From: Nostoc sp. TH1S01
Lineage (GTDB): Bacteria > Cyanobacteriota > Cyanobacteriia > Cyanobacteriales > Nostocaceae
Length of the DNA stretch: 32,588 nt
Reading direction: 5' to 3'
NCBI GenBank assembly: GCA_018993265.1
Contig: JAGKSW010000158.1
Location: 1-32,588, forward strand
Shown here one piece after another: positions 14,165 through 31,906 of this stretch. The position numbers were made by a program, and so were the translations under genes. The first letter of the stretch is position 1. Each line of letters opens with the position of its first letter. The notes beneath the pieces are model-generated. The model did no database searches. It was given only the letters and a program-made list of their open reading frames with translations, and had not been told where the DNA came from.

Positions 14165-14744
14165 CCAAAAACAAAATTAAACTCCCATCACCCGCAACCT
14201 TCAGGGTACTTTCTACCATTTTCATAGCAGTTTTCAGTTAGGTACAAAGTCAACATAGTGACTAGAATGTTGACCTTAAATACCTTAATCCACAAAAATT
14301 CATTTAAAATATGTACTGCTGCTTTAGCTCCAATAAAAGTAGCATAAATAATTTTCTTACAACACATAAAGTCAATACCTTAGACGGCGCTGCATAAATA
14401 CGGGATGAATTAAGCCTTTTTAGCAAGGTTAACTATCGATTTTTTGCACCTTTGCGCCTACCCTGCGGGTAGGCCCTACCGCGCCTATGCGCGAAACAAA
14501 AAACATCCTGCTAATCAGCAATGCGCCTTAGACAATTTCTGCTTTGCAGACTTATCTGTAATAGATGGTGTGCAGAGATATTCAGCAAGTGTTGGTGTAA
14601 GGCTAATAAGCAAGAGGTCTATACAGTAAAGTGAAGAGTTTTTAAACAAGTGTTTAAAAAAAAATTGTTTTACGCTATCTTTAATACAAGTGTTTTAAAT
14701 TTAAACAAAACATCCCTGTATTTCGATGGAGTACAAAAGCTGTT
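14165..14744. other. AT-rich intergenic region with palindromes upstream of the MerR gene
   Basis: No gene is supported. At 14457-14492 a compact hairpin cluster is seen: CCTACCC-TGC-GGGTAGG (14457-14473), GGTAGG-C-CCTACC (14468-14480) and GCGC-CTAT-GCGC (14481-14492). It is a probable dispersed cyanobacterial palindrome. Beyond it (14560-14744) the sequence is AT-rich and holds two operator-like repeats. Region 14380-14425 may be a remnant of a mobile element, but this is only a guess. Confidence 0.55.
14641..14708 (+). promoter_or_regulatory. Operator-like repeats upstream of the MerR-like gene
   Basis: TTTAAACAAGTGTTTAAA (14641-14658) has eight-base arms TTTAAACA/TGTTTAAA. A second copy of ACAAGTGTTT(T)AAA lies at 14686-14699, followed by TTTAAACAA at 14700-14708, matching 14641-14649. 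The paired dyads 40 bases apart and 36-100 bases before the regulator's ATG suggest autoregulation. No -35/-10 pair is assigned. Confidence 0.5.
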
Positions 14745-15218
14745 ATGGCTAGTGGATTTACTAGACAAGAAACCCTCGCTTTAACTGGCATAAGCTCTGG
14801 CAGACTAAGCTACTTAGATAGAACTGGGTTGGTAGTGCCAGAAAAGTTTGGTAATCCTCAGCACCCTAAAGTCGTTTATAAATGGCAACAAATTCTAGAA
14901 ATCAAAACTATTGAAAGATTAAGACAGAAGCTTTCATTGCAAGAAATTAGAAAAGTTTTATACTTTTTACAATCAAGAAATTATGAATATTCTTTTTTTA
15001 AGCATCGTCTTGTTTTTGTTAATTCACAACTTTATTTAATTGAAGATATGCAAGATTTTGGTTTGATGGTTTTAGAAACATCTGGAAAAAATCAGGGACA
15101 AGTTGTAATTAATGAAATCGGAGAAATTGGAGATGTAATTACAGAATTAGCCAGAGAAGCAGAGAAACATCATGTTTTAGATTTTGATAAACGGACAGGA
15201 ATAGTTTTGAAGGGGTAA
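14745..15218 (+). CDS. MerR-like transcriptional regulator of the methylase-nuclease cassette
   Basis: A 157-residue protein. The N-terminal 70 residues are a winged helix-turn-helix of MerR type (FTRQETLALTGISSGRLSYLDRTGLVVPEK), and the wing and following helix (IKTIERLRQKLSLQEIRKVL) match MerR dimer helices. The C-terminal half (about 80-157) is not a recognisable ligand or metal domain and has no paired cysteines, so metal sensing is unlikely. No strong Shine-Dalgarno precedes the ATG. It is 37 bases upstream of the methylase, and two operator-like repeats precede it, so it probably controls the methylase and nuclease genes, much as controller proteins do in restriction-modification systems. 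That role is inferred from position. Confidence 0.72.
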   Translation: MASGFTRQETLALTGISSGRLSYLDRTGLVVPEKFGNPQHPKVVYKWQQILEIKTIERLRQKLSLQEIRKVLYFLQSRNYEYSFFKHRLVFVNSQLYLIEDMQDFGLMVLETSGKNQGQVVINEIGEIGDVITELAREAEKHHVLDFDKRTGIVLKG

Positions 15219-15255
15219 GAGAAATACAGACAAGAATCACAAGGAGCAACCAGTA

Positions 15256-18200
15256 ATGAGTTCTAATTTAGCTGTAAATGAAATATACCAGCGAGTAATG
15301 GCACATACTGGCTTCTATCGTGATGGTGTGCCGACTACAGGAGTTACAGAAGCGGAAGATATTCGCAATAATAACCAGTATTTAGAAAAGCGCATTAAAT
15401 ATAGTGCTGTAATTGATACAGAACAAATTAATTCTACAGCAATCTATGAATTGTCTGGTTCACCTTGTATTTATTTTACTCAATTAGATGAACCTAACCC
15501 TAGAAAGTTAGCTAAACTACATAAACTGTCTTGGAATCATGGTTTAGCTCCGATGTTGTGGGTGATTACACCTGATGAGGTATTACTTTATAATTGTTAT
15601 TCTCAACCCACAAAACAAGATGAAAATGATCCAAATCGACATTTAATCGAGAGCTTTGAAACTACTGAAAGCGACTTGAGCCGTATGAATCAATTCGCTA
15701 GTCGTCTGCAAATTGAATCAGGTGAGTTTTGGCAGTGGGAAAAAGCAAAGCAAATTGATCGTCAGCAAAGAGTAGATTCAGTTCTTGTCAAAGATTTGAA
15801 TGAAGCTGAAGAAAAATTAACAAAAGAAAAAAAATTAGACCGTCAATTTGCTCATGCTCTATTAATACGTTCTGTTTTTGTTGCTTATCTGCAAGATAGA
15901 GGAATTTTCAATCAAGAATTTTTCAATAATCGTTTTGGAGTAGATTCATTTTATAAACTGCTAAATAATAAATTTGCAACTTATGAGTTATTTGAGTGGT
16001 TGCAAACAATTTTTAATGGTGATTTATTTCCTATTTATCCACAAGAAAAGGGCGCTGTAGATCAAAAGCATCTTGAAGTTGTACAAAGTTTAATAGGTGG
16101 TGTAGAAGAAATAGCAACAGGTCAACAACGTCTATGGCGGGCTTATGATTTCAAAGTCATACCTATAGAATTGATTAGTTCAATTTATGAAAGTTTTATT
16201 TATGCTACTGATTCCAAATCAGCAAAAGAAAATAGTACCCACTATACACCTATAAATTTAGTAGATTTGGTACTTTCTGAAGTATTTAAAGAACTCGATG
16301 GTAATGCTAAAATACTAGATTTAGCTTGTGGTTCAGGCGTGTTTCTAGTTGAATCTTTGCGGAGATTAGTCGTTAAGCGTTGGGCTAATGGAGAATCACC
16401 AACTCGCCATCTAATTCGTGAAACTCTTTATAATCAAATTTATGGTGTAGATATTAATCCTGAAGCAGTTCAGATTGCGGCTTTTAGTCTTTACCTTACT
16501 GCTTTGGAATTAGATTACGAATTAGAGCAACATCGTCAATTAACAGATGATTTAAAATTTCAAAAGCTGATAGGTAAGAATTTATTTGCCACTGACGCAT
16601 TTGAGGAAAAAGCAGAATTTAATCAAATAGAACAATTTGCACATAAACAATTTAGCGCAATCGTTGGTAATCCACCTTGGACAAAACCTAAATCTAATAA
16701 ATCAGCAGAAGAATATTGTCAGCGTAAGCGTCCTGATTCGTGTTATCCAGATGGATATCCTACAGCTTATGGTACACCTCCAGACCAAGCATTTTTATGG
16801 CGTATTGGCGACTTTGCTAATGATAAAACTTGCATTGGTTTAATTTTGCATGGTAAGCCTTTCTTTAGCAATGACACAGCAGCTAAAAAAGCAAAAGAAT
16901 CTCTCTTTATGAGGTTTAAACCGAAAGTTATTGTTAATTTATCTAAACTGCGTAGAGAGCATATTTTTCCTAATTCTGAAGCTCCAGCAATGATTTTAAT
17001 AGCAGAAGGTAAATATTCAGAACAGCGAGATACTTTTTATTTTGTATGCCCAGAACGTTCTATAGATTTCCGACGACATGGTATTGTTGAAATCGGAGCC
17101 GAGCATATTAAGAAACTTCCGGTTTTTAGCACAGCTTTCGATTCAGATATGCTCAAAGTTGCTACTTGGGGTAGTTCTAGAGATATATATTTGATTCAAA
17201 AATTAAGGTCTCTTCCAAAAATTGAAGAAATAGCCGGAAATTCGCCTAAGAGTGGCTTTAAAGTTGGAAATCAGAAATATGCTGTTCCAGAAGAAATACT
17301 AGGTAAAAAATTGCTACCTTCTGGTAAAATGCCCAGATACGAAATTGATACGACAGAATTAGATATTTTGTCATATACAAGATTAGAATCTTCCAGAAAT
17401 CCTCAAATATATAAAGCACCTTTGATTATTATTCCAGAAAAAGTAGAGTCTGATGGTATTTGTGCTGCATTTAGTGCGGAAGATATTGTTTATACAATAA
17501 GTTATTCAGGAATATCAATACCAAGTAATTTAATGTATTTAGCTCATTATTTGAATGGATTGATTAATTCATCAATTGCGAGCTACTTTATTTTTATGAC
17601 TGCTTCTTCATGGGGAGTAGAACGTAATAAAATTATGACACAGGATTTAGTAAGGCTTCCTGTTCCTGAACCTAATAGAGAAAATGAAGAATTTATTAAT
17701 CAAATTATCGAAATAGAAGGTAGATTGCGTAAATGTTCCAGTAAATCTGTTGAAGGAGATTTGAAAAGACAACTTGATAAAGCTGTATTTAATCTTTACG
17801 GTTTAGACGATGATGAACGTATTTTAGTTGAAGATACTACGCAAATCACGATTGATCTGTATATGAATCGTGAGAAATCGACAGCATTAAAAAGACCATT
17901 AGCTACTGATTTAGAAGCGTATGCTGTACAATTTATCAGTGTGATTGAACCATTTTTTGAGATTCTGAGAGAAAGAAGTATAGTTGCGGATATATTTAGT
18001 ATTGCTAAGACACCATTGCAGGTAGTTAAGTTTAGTATCGTACCATATCCAGGCCGTAAGCAAGTTATTCAAACTATCCTGGCTGAGAATTTGATAAATG
18101 TGCTAAAAAGCATTGCGAAACAACTACCGGCAAAATTTGCTGATCGTATTTTTACAAGACGCAACTTAAAAGTCTATGTCGGTGAAGATATATACATTAT

Positions 18201-18300
18201 TAAACCCTGCCAACTACGTTATTGGAGTCGTTCTGCTGGATTGAATGATGTAAATGATATTATTTCTGAACAACTAAAAAAACAGCCTGATAAAATTTAA
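15256..18300 (+). CDS. Large Eco57I-like N6-adenine DNA methyltransferase
   Basis: A 1014-residue protein. N-terminal residues 1-190 have no clear PD-(D/E)XK triad. A helical region (about 190-330) leads to the methylase core: the motif before the fold is HYTP near 327, SAM motif I DLACGSGVF at 355-363, and catalytic motif IV NPPW at 472-475, the N6-adenine signature. A target-recognition-like region (about 650-860) contains SSWGVERNKIMTQDLVRLPVPEPN. The last 130 residues end in YIIKPCQLRYWSRSAGLNDVNDII, of no recognised function. AAGGAG sits nine bases before the ATG. Its stop overlaps the nuclease start by one base (TAATG). The size suggests an Eco57I/type IIG-like methylase that modifies host DNA; its own nuclease seems absent and is supplied by the next gene. 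Confidence 0.85.
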   Translation: MSSNLAVNEIYQRVMAHTGFYRDGVPTTGVTEAEDIRNNNQYLEKRIKYSAVIDTEQINSTAIYELSGSPCIYFTQLDEPNPRKLAKLHKLSWNHGLAPMLWVITPDEVLLYNCYSQPTKQDENDPNRHLIESFETTESDLSRMNQFASRLQIESGEFWQWEKAKQIDRQQRVDSVLVKDLNEAEEKLTKEKKLDRQFAHALLIRSVFVAYLQDRGIFNQEFFNNRFGVDSFYKLLNNKFATYELFEWLQTIFNGDLFPIYPQEKGAVDQKHLEVVQSLIGGVEEIATGQQRLWRAYDFKVIPIELISSIYESFIYATDSKSAKENSTHYTPINLVDLVLSEVFKELDGNAKILDLACGSGVFLVESLRRLVVKRWANGESPTRHLIRETLYNQIYGVDINPEAVQIAAFSLYLTALELDYELEQHRQLTDDLKFQKLIGKNLFATDAFEEKAEFNQIEQFAHKQFSAIVGNPPWTKPKSNKSAEEYCQRKRPDSCYPDGYPTAYGTPPDQAFLWRIGDFANDKTCIGLILHGKPFFSNDTAAKKAKESLFMRFKPKVIVNLSKLRREHIFPNSEAPAMILIAEGKYSEQRDTFYFVCPERSIDFRRHGIVEIGAEHIKKLPVFSTAFDSDMLKVATWGSSRDIYLIQKLRSLPKIEEIAGNSPKSGFKVGNQKYAVPEEILGKKLLPSGKMPRYEIDTTELDILSYTRLESSRNPQIYKAPLIIIPEKVESDGICAAFSAEDIVYTISYSGISIPSNLMYLAHYLNGLINSSIASYFIFMTASSWGVERNKIMTQDLVRLPVPEPNRENEEFINQIIEIEGRLRKCSSKSVEGDLKRQLDKAVFNLYGLDDDERILVEDTTQITIDLYMNREKSTALKRPLATDLEAYAVQFISVIEPFFEILRERSIVADIFSIAKTPLQVVKFSIVPYPGRKQVIQTILAENLINVLKSIAKQLPAKFADRIFTRRNLKVYVGEDIYIIKPCQLRYWSRSAGLNDVNDIISEQLKKQPDKI

Positions 18301-18962
18301 TGACTATAGAATTTGATGACAAGAATATTATTCAATATTCTGCTGTATATTTACCAAGAGACATAATAGCCGTAGTTTTTGATATTACTATTACTGCCTG
18401 GTCAAAAGTGATAGCTAATAAAGAAATCAATATTAATTGTTATGAACCTATTATTGCTGGTTGCCTTAGTAAAGCTATGAAACAAGAAAAAAATAGTCGT
18501 CCTAAATTAAAAAATAAAATCCGAATTGAGGAAGAAGTAGGCACTAGAGCATCTCCTAATTCAGCTAAAGCTGAAGGACGTATTGATATAAAAATTATTT
18601 ATAGTTACAATGAAAATGAATACTTTGGAATGGAATGTAAGAAAATAAGCAGTACGAAACCAGATAGAGATTTAGCAACAAAATACGTTTTAGAAGGTGT
18701 AAAAAGATTTGTTGTAGGAACTTACAGCATAGGTCATGACTATGCAGCAATGCTAGGTTTTGTGATTGATGGTAAGGTTCCTGAGTGTATTGATTTGATT
18801 TGCGATCGCCTGAATAAATATAGAAATGATATCTCTTTAAAAGAAGATTGGATTGATGAAACAGGTTTCGGAACAAAACAAAATATATATCGTACTCGTC
18901 ATCTTCAAGACGGGCAAAATGATTTAATGACCATTCTCCATTTATTTCTCGTAGTTAATTAA
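18300..18962 (+). CDS. PD-(D/E)XK nuclease-like protein, translationally coupled to the methylase
   Basis: A 220-residue protein. A PD-(D/E)XK-type core is readable: GRID with Asp96, a beta strand IKIIY, then YFGMECKKI with Glu112 and Lys114, so the motif is D96-x15-E112-x-K114. Glu49 in a preceding helix (YEPIIAGCL) could be the extra acidic residue. No other domain is seen. Its ATG overlaps the methylase stop by one base, so the proteins are probably made together in fixed ratio. With the upstream methylase it would form a restriction-modification pair. Alternatively it may be a modification-dependent nuclease or a regulator subunit. Function rests on motifs only. Confidence 0.68.
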   Translation: MTIEFDDKNIIQYSAVYLPRDIIAVVFDITITAWSKVIANKEININCYEPIIAGCLSKAMKQEKNSRPKLKNKIRIEEEVGTRASPNSAKAEGRIDIKIIYSYNENEYFGMECKKISSTKPDRDLATKYVLEGVKRFVVGTYSIGHDYAAMLGFVIDGKVPECIDLICDRLNKYRNDISLKEDWIDETGFGTKQNIYRTRHLQDGQNDLMTILHLFLVVN

Positions 18963-19015
18963 GCTGATAAGACTGATACAACTGGCAAAGTGAATAAACT
19001 CTAGGGTTGTCAACC

Positions 19016-19086
19016 GTCAATGGTAAATAATCAGAAGTCAGCTTTTCTTAACTATCGACTATAGTCTAGATCGTTTTACCATTGAC
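19016..19086. repeat. Inverted repeat at a convergent junction
   Basis: GTCAATGGTAAA (19016-19027) and TTTACCATTGAC (19075-19086) are perfect 12-base inverted copies 47 bases apart, with the palindrome GACTATAGTC between them. It lies between the nuclease stop and the end of the mrp operon and may act as a bidirectional terminator or mark a junction. Confidence 0.7.
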
Positions 19087-19109
19087 TAACATCAATCTGT
19101 AACTCTATT

Positions 19110-24474: not shown

Positions 24475-25062
24475 TCAATCACTGATAACCGTAGGAAAAA
24501 TTCGATTCAAGTCCAAGACGATATCTTCAAACCCAGGAATTGCAACGGACTGATGGGGTAAGGAAATTTGTTTGCTGAGATAGTTAAATTTACCTTGAGC
24601 ATTTTGATAGGGTTGATTGTAACGCTCAAGCTGACGCGCATTTAAATTGACAATCCAATAATGAGAAATTCTGGCTTCTGCGTAGATTTCTAGTTTTGTG
24701 GTTTGGTCGTAATCTAAGGTTGTGTCTGAGATTTCAATCACCAAAAAAATATCTTCGGGATAGGGATGATGACTGAGATAATCTTCATCCATTCCGTGTG
24801 CGATCGCTACATCTGGTTCAGGTTCACTTTGATTTGGTAAAGTAATTGGATCTTGGCCGCGAATGACTGCTTGATCACCAAGCAATCGATCTAGTTGCCG
24901 ACATAAGATAGAACCACAAACTGTATGCGGCGTTCCCTTGGCTACCATTTGGATCAATTCTCCGCGAATTAATTCAATGCGATCGTTCTCCTGCAAAAAT
25001 CCCAATTCAATTAGACGATGATATTCATCAATAGAGAATCGCTTGGTTGTCACAACATTCAT
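24475..25062 (-). CDS. Uma2 family PD-(D/E)XK protein
   Basis: A 195-residue protein of the Uma2 (DUF820) family, very numerous in cyanobacteria. The N-terminal signature FSIDEYHRLIELGFLQENDRIELIRGELIQM (residues 9-39) is followed by the nuclease-like core EPEPDVAIA near 82 and LVIEISDTTLDYDQTTK near 106-122, with candidate active-site residues Asp84, Glu109 and Lys122. C-terminal beta strands (ARISHYWIVNLNARQLERY) are typical of the family. The family is annotated as endonucleases by fold, but activity is rarely shown and many copies sit alone. Nothing in its surroundings suggests a partner. The epimerase lies upstream in the same direction after about 40 bases. Confidence 0.85.
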   Translation of the reverse strand: MNVVTTKRFSIDEYHRLIELGFLQENDRIELIRGELIQMVAKGTPHTVCGSILCRQLDRLLGDQAVIRGQDPITLPNQSEPEPDVAIAHGMDEDYLSHHPYPEDIFLVIEISDTTLDYDQTTKLEIYAEARISHYWIVNLNARQLERYNQPYQNAQGKFNYLSKQISLPHQSVAIPGFEDIVLDLNRIFPTVISD

Positions 25063-29260: not shown

Positions 29261-31906
29261 ATGAACGCAGATAAATTTGTCCGGAAGCAGATTACTCGAC
29301 GCTATCAGGAAAAGATATTGCGGTTTTGTTTAAGAATAAAATTATATTTTGCATATATCATTAGCAAACACTATTTTTTCGGAATTTGTTTAATATCAAC
29401 TTTATTATTAGTTGTTATCAGTCATCCTGCTGTTGCTCATCAGCCTAAAATTGTAGAGTCAAATTTCCTAGCGCAACAAGTAGATAATAATTCTGAATTA
29501 TTACAGCAAGGTAAAAACTATTATCAAGTTGGACAATATACAGAAGCGGCTAGATTTTGGCAAGATGCGCTGAAAATTTATGAAGCAGAAAGAGCCACTA
29601 TTAGCCAAGTGCAAGTTTTAAATTATTTAGCCTTAGCATATAAAGAATTAGGGAAAATTCCTCAAGCACAAACTGCGATCGCTCAAAGTATTAATATCAT
29701 CAAAAGCTTCAAAAATCTCGATACTAAAAGTAACTTACTATTAGCACAGGCATTAAATACCCAAGGAAATCTACAAATATTACAAGGCAAAACAGAAGCT
29801 GCTCTAGATACTTGGCAACAAGCAGCAGTTATATATAAAAATGCAGGTGATCAAACAGGTAAACTGATCAGCCAAATTAATCTGTCTCAGAGTTTGCAAG
29901 CATTAGGACAATATCGCCGCGCCAAAACTTTGTTAGAAGAACTGATTACAGAATTGCAAAATCAACCGGATAGTCTCTTAAAAGCTCAAGGGTTGCGGAG
30001 TTTAGGAATTGCTTTGCAAACTGTTGGTGATTTAAAACAATCTAAATCAATCCTCGAAAAAAGTTGGGAAATTAGTCAGCAATTTAACTCACCATCTGAT
30101 GTGAGTGCAGCACTGTTTAGTATTGGTAATGTCGCTAGAGATTTAGAAGCTTATGATGTTGCTTGGACATATTATCAAGAAGCAGTAAATTTGGCTCCAG
30201 AAACACAAGCAAAATTAGAAGCGCAATTAAATCAATTGAGCTTGTTAGTGAAACTGCAAAACTGGGAAACAGCACAAACATTAATTCCCGAAATCGAAAC
30301 TAACCTCAACCCACTTCCGGCTAGTCGTCCTGCTATTTACGCTAGGATAAACTTTGCAGAAAGTTTGATGGCATTAGCAAAAAATAAGAGTAACCCTAGC
30401 AAAATTGCTCAATTATTAGCAACCGCCATTCAACAAGCTCAAGAAATTCAAGATGCAAGAGCCGAAGCTAACTCTTTGAACCAACTAGGTAAACTGTATC
30501 AAGAAAACGGCCAGTTAGCAGATGCAGAAAAATTGACAAAACAAGCACTCACAATAGCACAAGACATCAAGGCTACTGATTTAGTAGCACGTGCGGCGGG
30601 ACAATTGGGTGCAATTGCTCAAAAACAAAAAAATCTTGATAGTGCGATCGCTGCCTATGAAATCGCGTTTAATAGTTATCAAGCTCTACGCAGCGATTTA
30701 GTGGCGATTAATAAAGATGTTCAATTTAATTTCAAGGAAAGTATTGAACCAATCTATCGAGATTATGTCAGTCTGTTATTGCAAAAAGACAATCAAAGCA
30801 ACATCAAAAAAGCTCTGGAAGTTATAGAAGCATTGCAAATAGCTGAATTAGATAACTTTTTTCGAGATGCTTGTTTAGATAATACCAAACCTGTAGTGTT
30901 AGAAAAAATTGACTTGCAAGCAGCGGTGATTCATCCGATAATTTTACGCGATCGCTTGGAAGTTATTCTCGTAGTTCCCAATCAACCTCTACAACACTAC
31001 AGCACTCAACTCTCAAAACCGCAAGTTGAAGCTACTTTAAAACAACTTTATTCTTCCTTATCTCCTGGTTATCCCAATAACGAGCGTTTGCGACTTTCCC
31101 AAGAAGTTTATAACTGGCTGGTTACACCCGCTCAAGCAACACTCCAAAAAGGTAATATCAAAACATTAGTTTTTATCCCAGATGGGTTGCTGCGAAATTT
31201 ACCAATGGCTGTTTTGTATGATGGCAAAAAATATTTAATCGAAAATTATAGTATTGCTCTGAGTCCTGGGTTAAAACTATTTCCCCAAGGATTGCAACGC
31301 CAAAAACTCAGCGTGTTAGCGGCTGGACTGACAGAAGCACGCCAAGGCTTTAATCCCTTACCGGGAGTGACAGGAGAAATTGAACAAGTCACAACACAAA
31401 TTAATTCGCAAGTATTATTCAATCAAAAGTTTAACAAAGACAATTTAAAAACAGCGATCGCTAGTCATTCTTTCCCCATAGTTCACCTAGCGACTCACGG
31501 TCAATTTAGCTCTGACCCAGACGAAACCTTTTTGTTGACATGGAGCGATCGCATTTCCATTCAAGACTTTGATAGTTTATTTCAAAATCGCAGGCAAAAC
31601 AATAACCAACCCATTGAATTATTAGTCATGAGTGCTTGTCAAACCGCCGTTGGTGATAACCGTGCAACCTTGGGTTTAGCTGGATTTGCCTTGCGTTCTG
31701 GTGCTAAAAGTACCGTTGCGAGTTTGTGGTCAGTTAGTGATGAATCTACTTCCCAATTAATGAAAGAATTTTATCACCAATTAAGTAATCCCAAACTCAA
31801 CAAAGCCGAGGCATTGCAACAAGCACAACTCAAACTTATGGCTAATCCTTTATACAAACATCCTTATTTCTGGTCTTCTTTTGTTCTTGTCGGTAACTGG
31901 TTATAA
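29261..31906 (+). CDS. Secreted TPR-CHAT domain protein
   Basis: An 881-residue protein. N-terminal residues 30-57 form a hydrophobic signal or anchor segment ending AVA before HQ, so it is exported or membrane-anchored. Residues about 70-500 are TPR-like helical repeats (QVGQYTEAARFWQDAL, LAYKELGKIPQAQTAI, NQLGKLYQENGQLADAE). The CHAT caspase-like domain (about 600-881) has catalytic His746 in HLATHGQF and Cys793 in MSACQTAVGD, and ends in HPYFWSSFVLVGNW, all typical. It would be a cysteine peptidase with a TPR scaffold. It follows the haemagglutinin-like exoprotein by 86 bases and precedes a DUF928 gene, a combination seen in cyanobacteria. The start ATG falls within a repeat sequence (CGCAGATGAACGCAGAT) with GAGGA nine bases upstream, so the start may be further down. 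Confidence 0.85.
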   Translation: MNADKFVRKQITRRYQEKILRFCLRIKLYFAYIISKHYFFGICLISTLLLVVISHPAVAHQPKIVESNFLAQQVDNNSELLQQGKNYYQVGQYTEAARFWQDALKIYEAERATISQVQVLNYLALAYKELGKIPQAQTAIAQSINIIKSFKNLDTKSNLLLAQALNTQGNLQILQGKTEAALDTWQQAAVIYKNAGDQTGKLISQINLSQSLQALGQYRRAKTLLEELITELQNQPDSLLKAQGLRSLGIALQTVGDLKQSKSILEKSWEISQQFNSPSDVSAALFSIGNVARDLEAYDVAWTYYQEAVNLAPETQAKLEAQLNQLSLLVKLQNWETAQTLIPEIETNLNPLPASRPAIYARINFAESLMALAKNKSNPSKIAQLLATAIQQAQEIQDARAEANSLNQLGKLYQENGQLADAEKLTKQALTIAQDIKATDLVARAAGQLGAIAQKQKNLDSAIAAYEIAFNSYQALRSDLVAINKDVQFNFKESIEPIYRDYVSLLLQKDNQSNIKKALEVIEALQIAELDNFFRDACLDNTKPVVLEKIDLQAAVIHPIILRDRLEVILVVPNQPLQHYSTQLSKPQVEATLKQLYSSLSPGYPNNERLRLSQEVYNWLVTPAQATLQKGNIKTLVFIPDGLLRNLPMAVLYDGKKYLIENYSIALSPGLKLFPQGLQRQKLSVLAAGLTEARQGFNPLPGVTGEIEQVTTQINSQVLFNQKFNKDNLKTAIASHSFPIVHLATHGQFSSDPDETFLLTWSDRISIQDFDSLFQNRRQNNNQPIELLVMSACQTAVGDNRATLGLAGFALRSGAKSTVASLWSVSDESTSQLMKEFYHQLSNPKLNKAEALQQAQLKLMANPLYKHPYFWSSFVLVGNWL

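Follow-up and report, generated by a model that had tools for sequence, protein, structure and literature searches.

A 32,588-nucleotide stretch of contig JAGKSW010000158.1 of Nostoc sp. TH1S01 (GCA_018993265.1), referred to here in its full length as the window, carries a three-gene cassette that is probably a mobile, split Type IIG-like restriction-modification system, as judged from sequence comparison and structure prediction. The cassette encodes a MerR-type regulator of 157 amino acids (aa; 14745..15218), a gamma-class N6-adenine DNA methylase of 1014 aa (15256..18300) and a predicted PD-(D/E)XK-type nuclease of 220 aa (18300..18962), and all three genes and the parts of them described below lie on the + strand. 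A gap of 37 nucleotides (nt) separates the regulator from the methylase, and the TAA stop of the methylase (18298-18300) has one base in common with the ATG of the nuclease (18300-18302). These open reading frames (ORFs) agree with the original prediction, made from the sequence alone, of three co-directional genes with the motifs DLACGSGVF and NPPW in the methylase, D96-x15-E112-x-K114 in the 220-aa protein and an overlap of methylase stop and nuclease start. In the proposed mechanism, the methylase would recognise a DNA site, methylate adenine there and mark self DNA, the separate nuclease would cut unmodified DNA, and the MerR-type protein would bind dyads before its own gene and set expression; methylation, cutting, defence and regulation are thus activities that we infer.

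The split reading is supported by the catalytic residues and the order of fold elements in the nuclease, by the near-obligate pairing of the two genes and by the lack of a conserved (D/E)xK in the methylase N-terminus. Of the earlier proposal of a split restriction-modification system with a possibly new architecture, the split is supported by sequence and departs from the definition of Type IIG enzymes in reviews and from the libraries searched; as to novelty, the arrangement is widespread and its methylase half already stands in PADLOC as 'Type IIG'.

A widespread two-gene unit

Methylase relatives (E 1e-30 or better) occur at 20 places in 17 of the 243 genomes of the order, the host genome included. 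A nuclease hidden Markov model (HMM) matches the ORF 3' of the methylase at 19 of these 20 places, 16 of them by construction since the HMM was built from an order-level alignment (A2) that left out only L003, L016, L017 and L019. The 20th locus, L003 in genome G154, holds the nuclease only as a piece broken by a stop, and in L017 and L019 the nuclease ORF continues past the edge of the fetched piece. A scan of one genome per species gave 326 matching stretches, of which 266 were confirmed as methylase relatives and the best 80 kept (hereafter the 80 relatives). The closest named relatives are Nostocales records, and these best 80 of the 266 come from cyanobacteria, planctomycetes, alpha-, beta- and gammaproteobacteria, Chloroflexi, Bryobacterales, Gemmatimonadota, KSB1 and others. 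An ORF of the nuclease family lies directly behind the methylase in 78 of the 80 relatives, two of which (L033 and L036) seem to be contigs that also supplied HMM seed loci; of the two misses, the methylase reaches the contig end in L049, and the other, L097, is considered below. The methylase and the nuclease therefore form a widespread two-gene unit that is not rare.

Searched against 292 genomes of the phylum, the PADLOC Type IIG model PDLC03603 finds 11 places in 10 of them (E 1e-60 or better). Six of these places were already in the order-level set, and all 11 carry the nuclease family, one as a broken 57-aa piece and three cut by the edge of the locus. Such constant pairing is an argument for regarding the methylase as half of a two-gene system. 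Across 47 loci, methylase and nuclease distances are correlated at 0.955 (0 of 2000 permutations), and the two genes have therefore mostly been inherited together. On viral contigs, seven of 11 methylase loci have a match to the nuclease HMM; in this set L191 stops with the methylase, L194 and L195 are weak relatives, the contigs of L185 and L186 are equal in size, and the contig of L190 equals that of L097 in size. Phage records gave no methylase match at E 1e-20. Restriction systems can keep their methylase while the nuclease is broken, and the relative in G154 (L003/L025/L178), with an intact methylase frame beside its broken nuclease, may have lost restriction. A nuclease remnant was also seen in G210 (L024; residues 130-219 matched, 74% identity); at E 1e-30 this genome gave no match to the methylase.

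Predicted nuclease and methylase parts

The predicted catalytic residues of the nuclease, D96, E112 and K114 (codons D96 to K114, 18585..18641), are invariant in both the order-level and the wider alignment. In 16 order-level nucleases the invariant positions are E79, D96, E112, K114, Y129, Y142, M151, H201 and H214, and in 60 wider sequences they are D96, E112, K114, Y129, G133, R136 and Y142; the wider alignment (A3) used 59 of the 78 nucleases, 13 near-identical ones and six with unsure starts having been dropped. The D...(D/E)xK that the PD-(D/E)XK superfamily requires is thus present without exception in the 60 sequences. An AlphaFold model based on these 60 sequences (predicted local distance difference test (pLDDT) 89.7, predicted template modelling score (pTM) 0.86) consists of a helix (49-65), strands (75-77, 91-93, 97-100 and 108-116), a further helix (122-138) and a strand (148-155), an order that fits the PD-(D/E)XK core, with E112-x-K114 placed within predicted strand 108-116. 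When the nuclease profile was compared with HSDR_N_2 domains by hhalign, the two aligned on the D...ExK over 32 columns (probability 81.4, E 1.2e-5), and four methylase stretches used as controls reached probabilities of 0.1-0.2. The HSDR_N_2 set came from nine of 11 fetched loci, two of which yielded empty extractions.

Pfam gave no match above cut-off for the 220-aa protein of the window, a profile search of PDB sequences with the nuclease gave none at E 10, and neither Pfam, PADLOC nor NCBIfam holds a family for it, a putative REBASE entry being possible. When the 60 members were scanned against the libraries at E 0.05, Pfam returned TfoX_C and PDDEXK_9 in one member each (PDDEXK_9 at E 0.0053), Dsr1 models matched three members in PADLOC (E 0.0062) and three in NCBIfam, and four other NCBIfam models matched one each. 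We attribute these stray matches to chance, with PDDEXK_9 pointing weakly the way one would expect. The search of a defence-gene collection that the original prediction had called for, made here in PADLOC, thus finds the methylase catalogued, as a 'Type IIG restriction enzyme-methyltransferase' (PDLC03603, E 3.7e-73), and the nuclease without a match.

The assignment of the methylase to the gamma class of N6-adenine methylases, with a recognition region behind the core, is based on the order of its motifs, a match to Pfam Eco57I (69.1 bits, cut-off 25.3), an AlphaFold model from 50 sequences (pLDDT 86.9, pTM 0.88) and the variable residues 641-760. Foldseek neighbours of the model are CamA, BrxX/PglX, M.BseCI, BpuSI, MmeI and DrdV. 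Residues 641-760 (17176..17535) are taken as the target-recognition region: the methylases of the window and of L027 are 94% identical over residues 1-480 and 0.95-1.00 identical per block over 281-640, and drop to 0.50-0.56 over 641-760, and TaqI_C matches weakly at 694-803 (E 0.0047, below cut-off). Towards the other end of the protein, no (D/E)xK is conserved within residues 1-345 among 50 aligned methylases (alignment A4, which used 49 of the 80 methylases); a lysine is found at position 75 in 0.80 of the sequences, with no conserved acid two places earlier. The hhalign comparisons of this N-terminus with HSDR_N_2 and with the nuclease profile gave a probability of 0.2 each. A degenerate nuclease domain in the N-terminus was considered; only the helix-strand order hints at it, and we do not claim one. 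In a search for Type IIG proteins that carry a nuclease at the N-terminus, PADLOC model PDLC03604 found three places in 80 genomes and was dropped. The C-terminal motif that the first reading of the sequence had not recognised, YWSRSAGLNDVNDII, is the end of a conserved region spanning residues 831-1005 (17746..18270), seen in both the alignment and the model, in which R988 and D998 are present in all 50 aligned methylases, K983 in 49 and W990 in 48.

Regulator, dyads and cassette borders

The 157-aa protein carries the MerR helix-turn-helix (HTH) domain of the MerR family (Pfam MerR_1, 26.3 bits, cut-off 21.6). In 60 of the 80 relatives, a same-strand ORF has its end somewhere from 110 nt upstream of the methylase start to 50 nt past it, and of the 61 upstream proteins obtained when the window's own is added, 42 match MerR_1 at E 0.01. 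A MerR HMM, seeded from P0001, 18 of the 80 loci and L015, matches the upstream 1.2 kilobases (kb) of 53 of the 80 relatives and eight of the 20 order-level loci, the window among them. The expectation that all three genes are conserved together is therefore borne out for methylase and nuclease (78 of 80) and only in part for a MerR-like gene upstream (53 of 80). In many proteobacterial loci the regulator and methylase genes overlap by four bases, which makes a single operon likely there. L008 and L009 hold distant methylase relatives preceded by a MerR-like gene that resembles that of the window and runs in the opposite orientation.

Two dyads were predicted before the regulator, and both are present: an exact inverted repeat with 10-nt arms and a 2-nt spacer (14639..14660), and an imperfect copy (14680..14699) that is 85% identical over 20 nt and begins 40 nt beyond the first. 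They lie in an upstream region (14564..14744, + strand) that is partly shared with other cassettes and is probably a promoter/operator; blastn pieces to 11 loci begin between 14564 and 14639, and 13 upstream regions were aligned. From 16 relatives tried, the upstream region of the orthologous MerR gene was obtained for 12, and the exact decamer ACAAGTGTTT is found in five of these 12, the perfect form TTTAAACA..TGTTTAAA in none of them. With one mismatch allowed, the decamer by itself is not rarer than chance (four found, 4.3 expected; 60 of 100 shuffles gave at least four), so what gives it weight is its location and its conservation in part of the relatives, not rarity. The MerR-type protein may be autoregulated via the dyads.

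Comparison with same-genus genomes that lack the cassette delimits an inserted unit of about 4.88 kb (14224..19102). In three such genomes homology stops on the left at 14222-14224 and starts again on the right at 19096-19108, and in two of them, G361 and G339, the flanks are joined with only 60 base pairs (bp; L171) and 3 bp (L173) between them. The third, G265 (L172), has about 1 kb of other DNA at the cassette's site, which may take up DNA repeatedly. The guanine-plus-cytosine content per kilobase is 0.32-0.36 in the cassette and 0.40-0.44 beside it. When the two cassette ends were compared for shared 9-mers, a single short direct match turned up within the insert, and none in inverted orientation. 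In Stutzerimonas degradans (L081), the cassette is surrounded by genes of a conjugative element, namely a TIGR03744 conjugative ATPase and the integrating-conjugative-element proteins TIGR03756 and TIGR03755. These surroundings are common to ten records, including Stutzerimonas, Thauera, Pseudomonas, Burkholderiales and Propionivibrio; of the nine compared with L081, six are 96.9-98.2% identical over 13.2-14.9 kb and three match along shorter stretches at 95-99.7%. On plasmids, distant relatives with less than 60% identity were found in 21 records. Judged from these genome comparisons, the cassette is a mobile, recently inserted unit.

Other observations concern the genomic setting. Cassette relatives in small genomes (about 2 megabases) of the same phylum (L174 and L175) each stand behind a 422-residue frame that looks integrase-like by eye. 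Elsewhere in the window, a 195-aa protein (24475-25062, - strand) matches the PADLOC candidate defence family PDC-S03 (E 2.6e-15), and an 881-aa protein (29261-31906, + strand) has tetratricopeptide repeats and a C-terminal CHAT protease domain.

Alternative readings and known systems

How the nuclease would find its target can be read in two ways. We suggest, tentatively, that it is guided by the recognition region of the methylase, as if a Type IIG enzyme had been split between two proteins; as an alternative that carries real though less than even weight, it would recognise the same site alone, independently of the methylase, as in an orthodox Type II system. Separate adjacent genes and a length of 220 aa, near that of EcoRV (229-245 residues in PDB chains), suit the orthodox arrangement, and the cyanobacterial loci speak against it. 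At close range the methylase and nuclease are mosaics. Among the ten closest of these loci, the nuclease N-half (residues 1-95, 18300..18584) comes in two types, one in the window, L030 and L032 and one in the other seven, with identities of 0.36-0.41 between types and 0.73-0.96 within them, and of 0.59-0.96 in the C-half. L029 and L035 share the N-half at 0.96 with recognition regions at 0.43, and L028 and L030 share it at 0.37 with recognition regions at 0.71. With methylase residues 1-480 controlled, the partial correlation of nuclease and recognition region is -0.14 in 13 cyanobacterial loci and -0.06 in ten, an independence which suggests that the nuclease is not itself the source of specificity. 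Since low identity in the recognition region need not mean different targets, and since the sets of loci disagree, the cyanobacterial result is suggestive only. The partial correlation of the nuclease with the C-terminal region of the methylase is stronger outside cyanobacteria (0.70 in 38 non-cyanobacterial loci and 0.33 in the 20 that are mainly proteobacterial, both with 0 of 1000 permutations), moderate in nine cyanobacterial loci (0.32, 44 of 1000) and absent in 13 (0.11, 532 of 2000), and one may speculate from these distances, in tests that do not remove shared ancestry, that residues 831-1005 contact the nuclease.

Several results weigh against a split system in which the methylase guides the nuclease and a MerR-type protein controls both. 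Outside cyanobacteria, the distance of the nuclease tracks that of the recognition region after the core is controlled, as the orthodox arrangement would have it (0.47 and 0.59 in the 38 non-cyanobacterial loci, 0 of 1000 permutations each; 0.16 in the more closely related set of 20 mainly proteobacterial loci, L062 being titled Bryobacterales, 51 of 1000). In L097, the 588 nt behind the methylase contain no match to the nuclease HMM. The PD-(D/E)XK fold that had been foreseen for the 220-aa protein is matched by the order of its predicted elements and not by a significant solved structure: Foldseek found nothing in the PDB at E 0.001 for the nuclease model, and the top rows are acetyl-CoA carboxylase (E 0.12 and 0.15), followed by EcoRV (E 0.18), the first nuclease in the list and the entry that fills many of the 50 rows listed. 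The MerR HMM has no match upstream in 27 of the 80 relatives, and four of the 61 upstream proteins have a Cro/Xre-type HTH instead (by eye, in L041, L043, L045 and L047). These two findings, together with the opposite strand in L008 and L009, would suit a MerR gene that is a mere neighbour without a part in controlling the system, which we consider unlikely: in 53 of 80 relatives it lies close by and mostly on the same strand, in many proteobacterial loci it overlaps the methylase by four bases, and here it is inside the inserted unit. It is very improbable that the cassette serves some purpose other than restriction, with a methylase of epigenetic or BREX-like function and a companion protein that does something else: the Foldseek neighbours include BrxX/PglX and NCBIfam gives weak matches (49.4 bits against a cut-off of 400), but the predicted catalytic residues do not vary across the 60 nuclease sequences, and a PADLOC scan of 10 other window proteins found no BREX partner.

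Were the methylase to supply the nuclease with its target, the pair would amount to a simple enzyme of two parts, with a target that can be changed via one protein; a new recognition region could then suffice to shift specificity, a different nuclease module could be taken up with the target unchanged, and the design would link Type IIG enzymes with the multi-subunit Type I and III systems. The cassette could represent, as a tentative proposal, a helicase-free two-subunit restriction class in which the recognition region directs both methylation and a partly interchangeable nuclease acting in trans, possibly docked on the methylase C-terminal region. The nuclease family is uncatalogued in Pfam, PADLOC and NCBIfam and the methylase is filed in PADLOC as a complete one-protein enzyme; such systems are therefore probably mis-typed in surveys. 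Titles and abstract openings in the literature searched yielded no description of the methylase-nuclease pair or of MerR-controlled restriction. According to excerpts of a survey of cyanobacterial restriction, the size of a protein can by itself tell Type IIG enzymes apart from other methyltransferases (PMC8262939); by that measure, the methylase described here would presumably pass as Type IIG despite having its nuclease in another gene.

Among known systems, BREX provides a structural neighbour of the methylase in PglX/BrxX, but the methylase reaches only 49.4 of the 400 bits required and none of the 10 window proteins scanned is a partner. The controller (C) proteins of restriction systems are Xre-like. 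The cassette resembles systems with such proteins in having a small HTH gene before the enzymes, which in four relatives is of the Cro/Xre type, and differs from them in that its common regulator is MerR-type (42 of 61 upstream proteins). With orthodox Type II systems, for which EcoRV serves as the yardstick, it shares two adjacent genes and a small PD-(D/E)XK-type nuclease, whereas the methylase is large and Type IIG-like and the match to EcoRV is not significant (E 0.18). Type IIG enzymes (Eco57I, BpuSI, MmeI and DrdV) likewise have a gamma-class methylase, about 1000 aa in length, whose catalytic core is followed by a variable stretch; the Pfam family Eco57I and the PADLOC model are also shared, and BpuSI, MmeI and DrdV are among the Foldseek neighbours. 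However, in the excerpts used here, Type IIG is defined by a cleavage domain at the N-terminus of the same chain (PMC3874165, PMC4081073), and in the cassette the nuclease has its own gene and the methylase N-terminus is without a conserved (D/E)xK. Another parallel is HVO_A0006/HVO_A0237 of Haloferax volcanii, proposed as a split Type IIG system in excerpts of PMC4389544, where a PD-(D/E)XK protein and a Type IIG-like methylase are likewise encoded by separate genes and proposed to be one enzyme. In that account, the nuclease is a fragment homologous to the N-terminus of Type IIG enzymes and lies beside transposition genes, apart from the methylase gene. In contrast, the nuclease of the Nostoc cassette belongs to a distinct family, stands directly behind a methylase that has an N-terminal region, and recurs in this arrangement across phyla.

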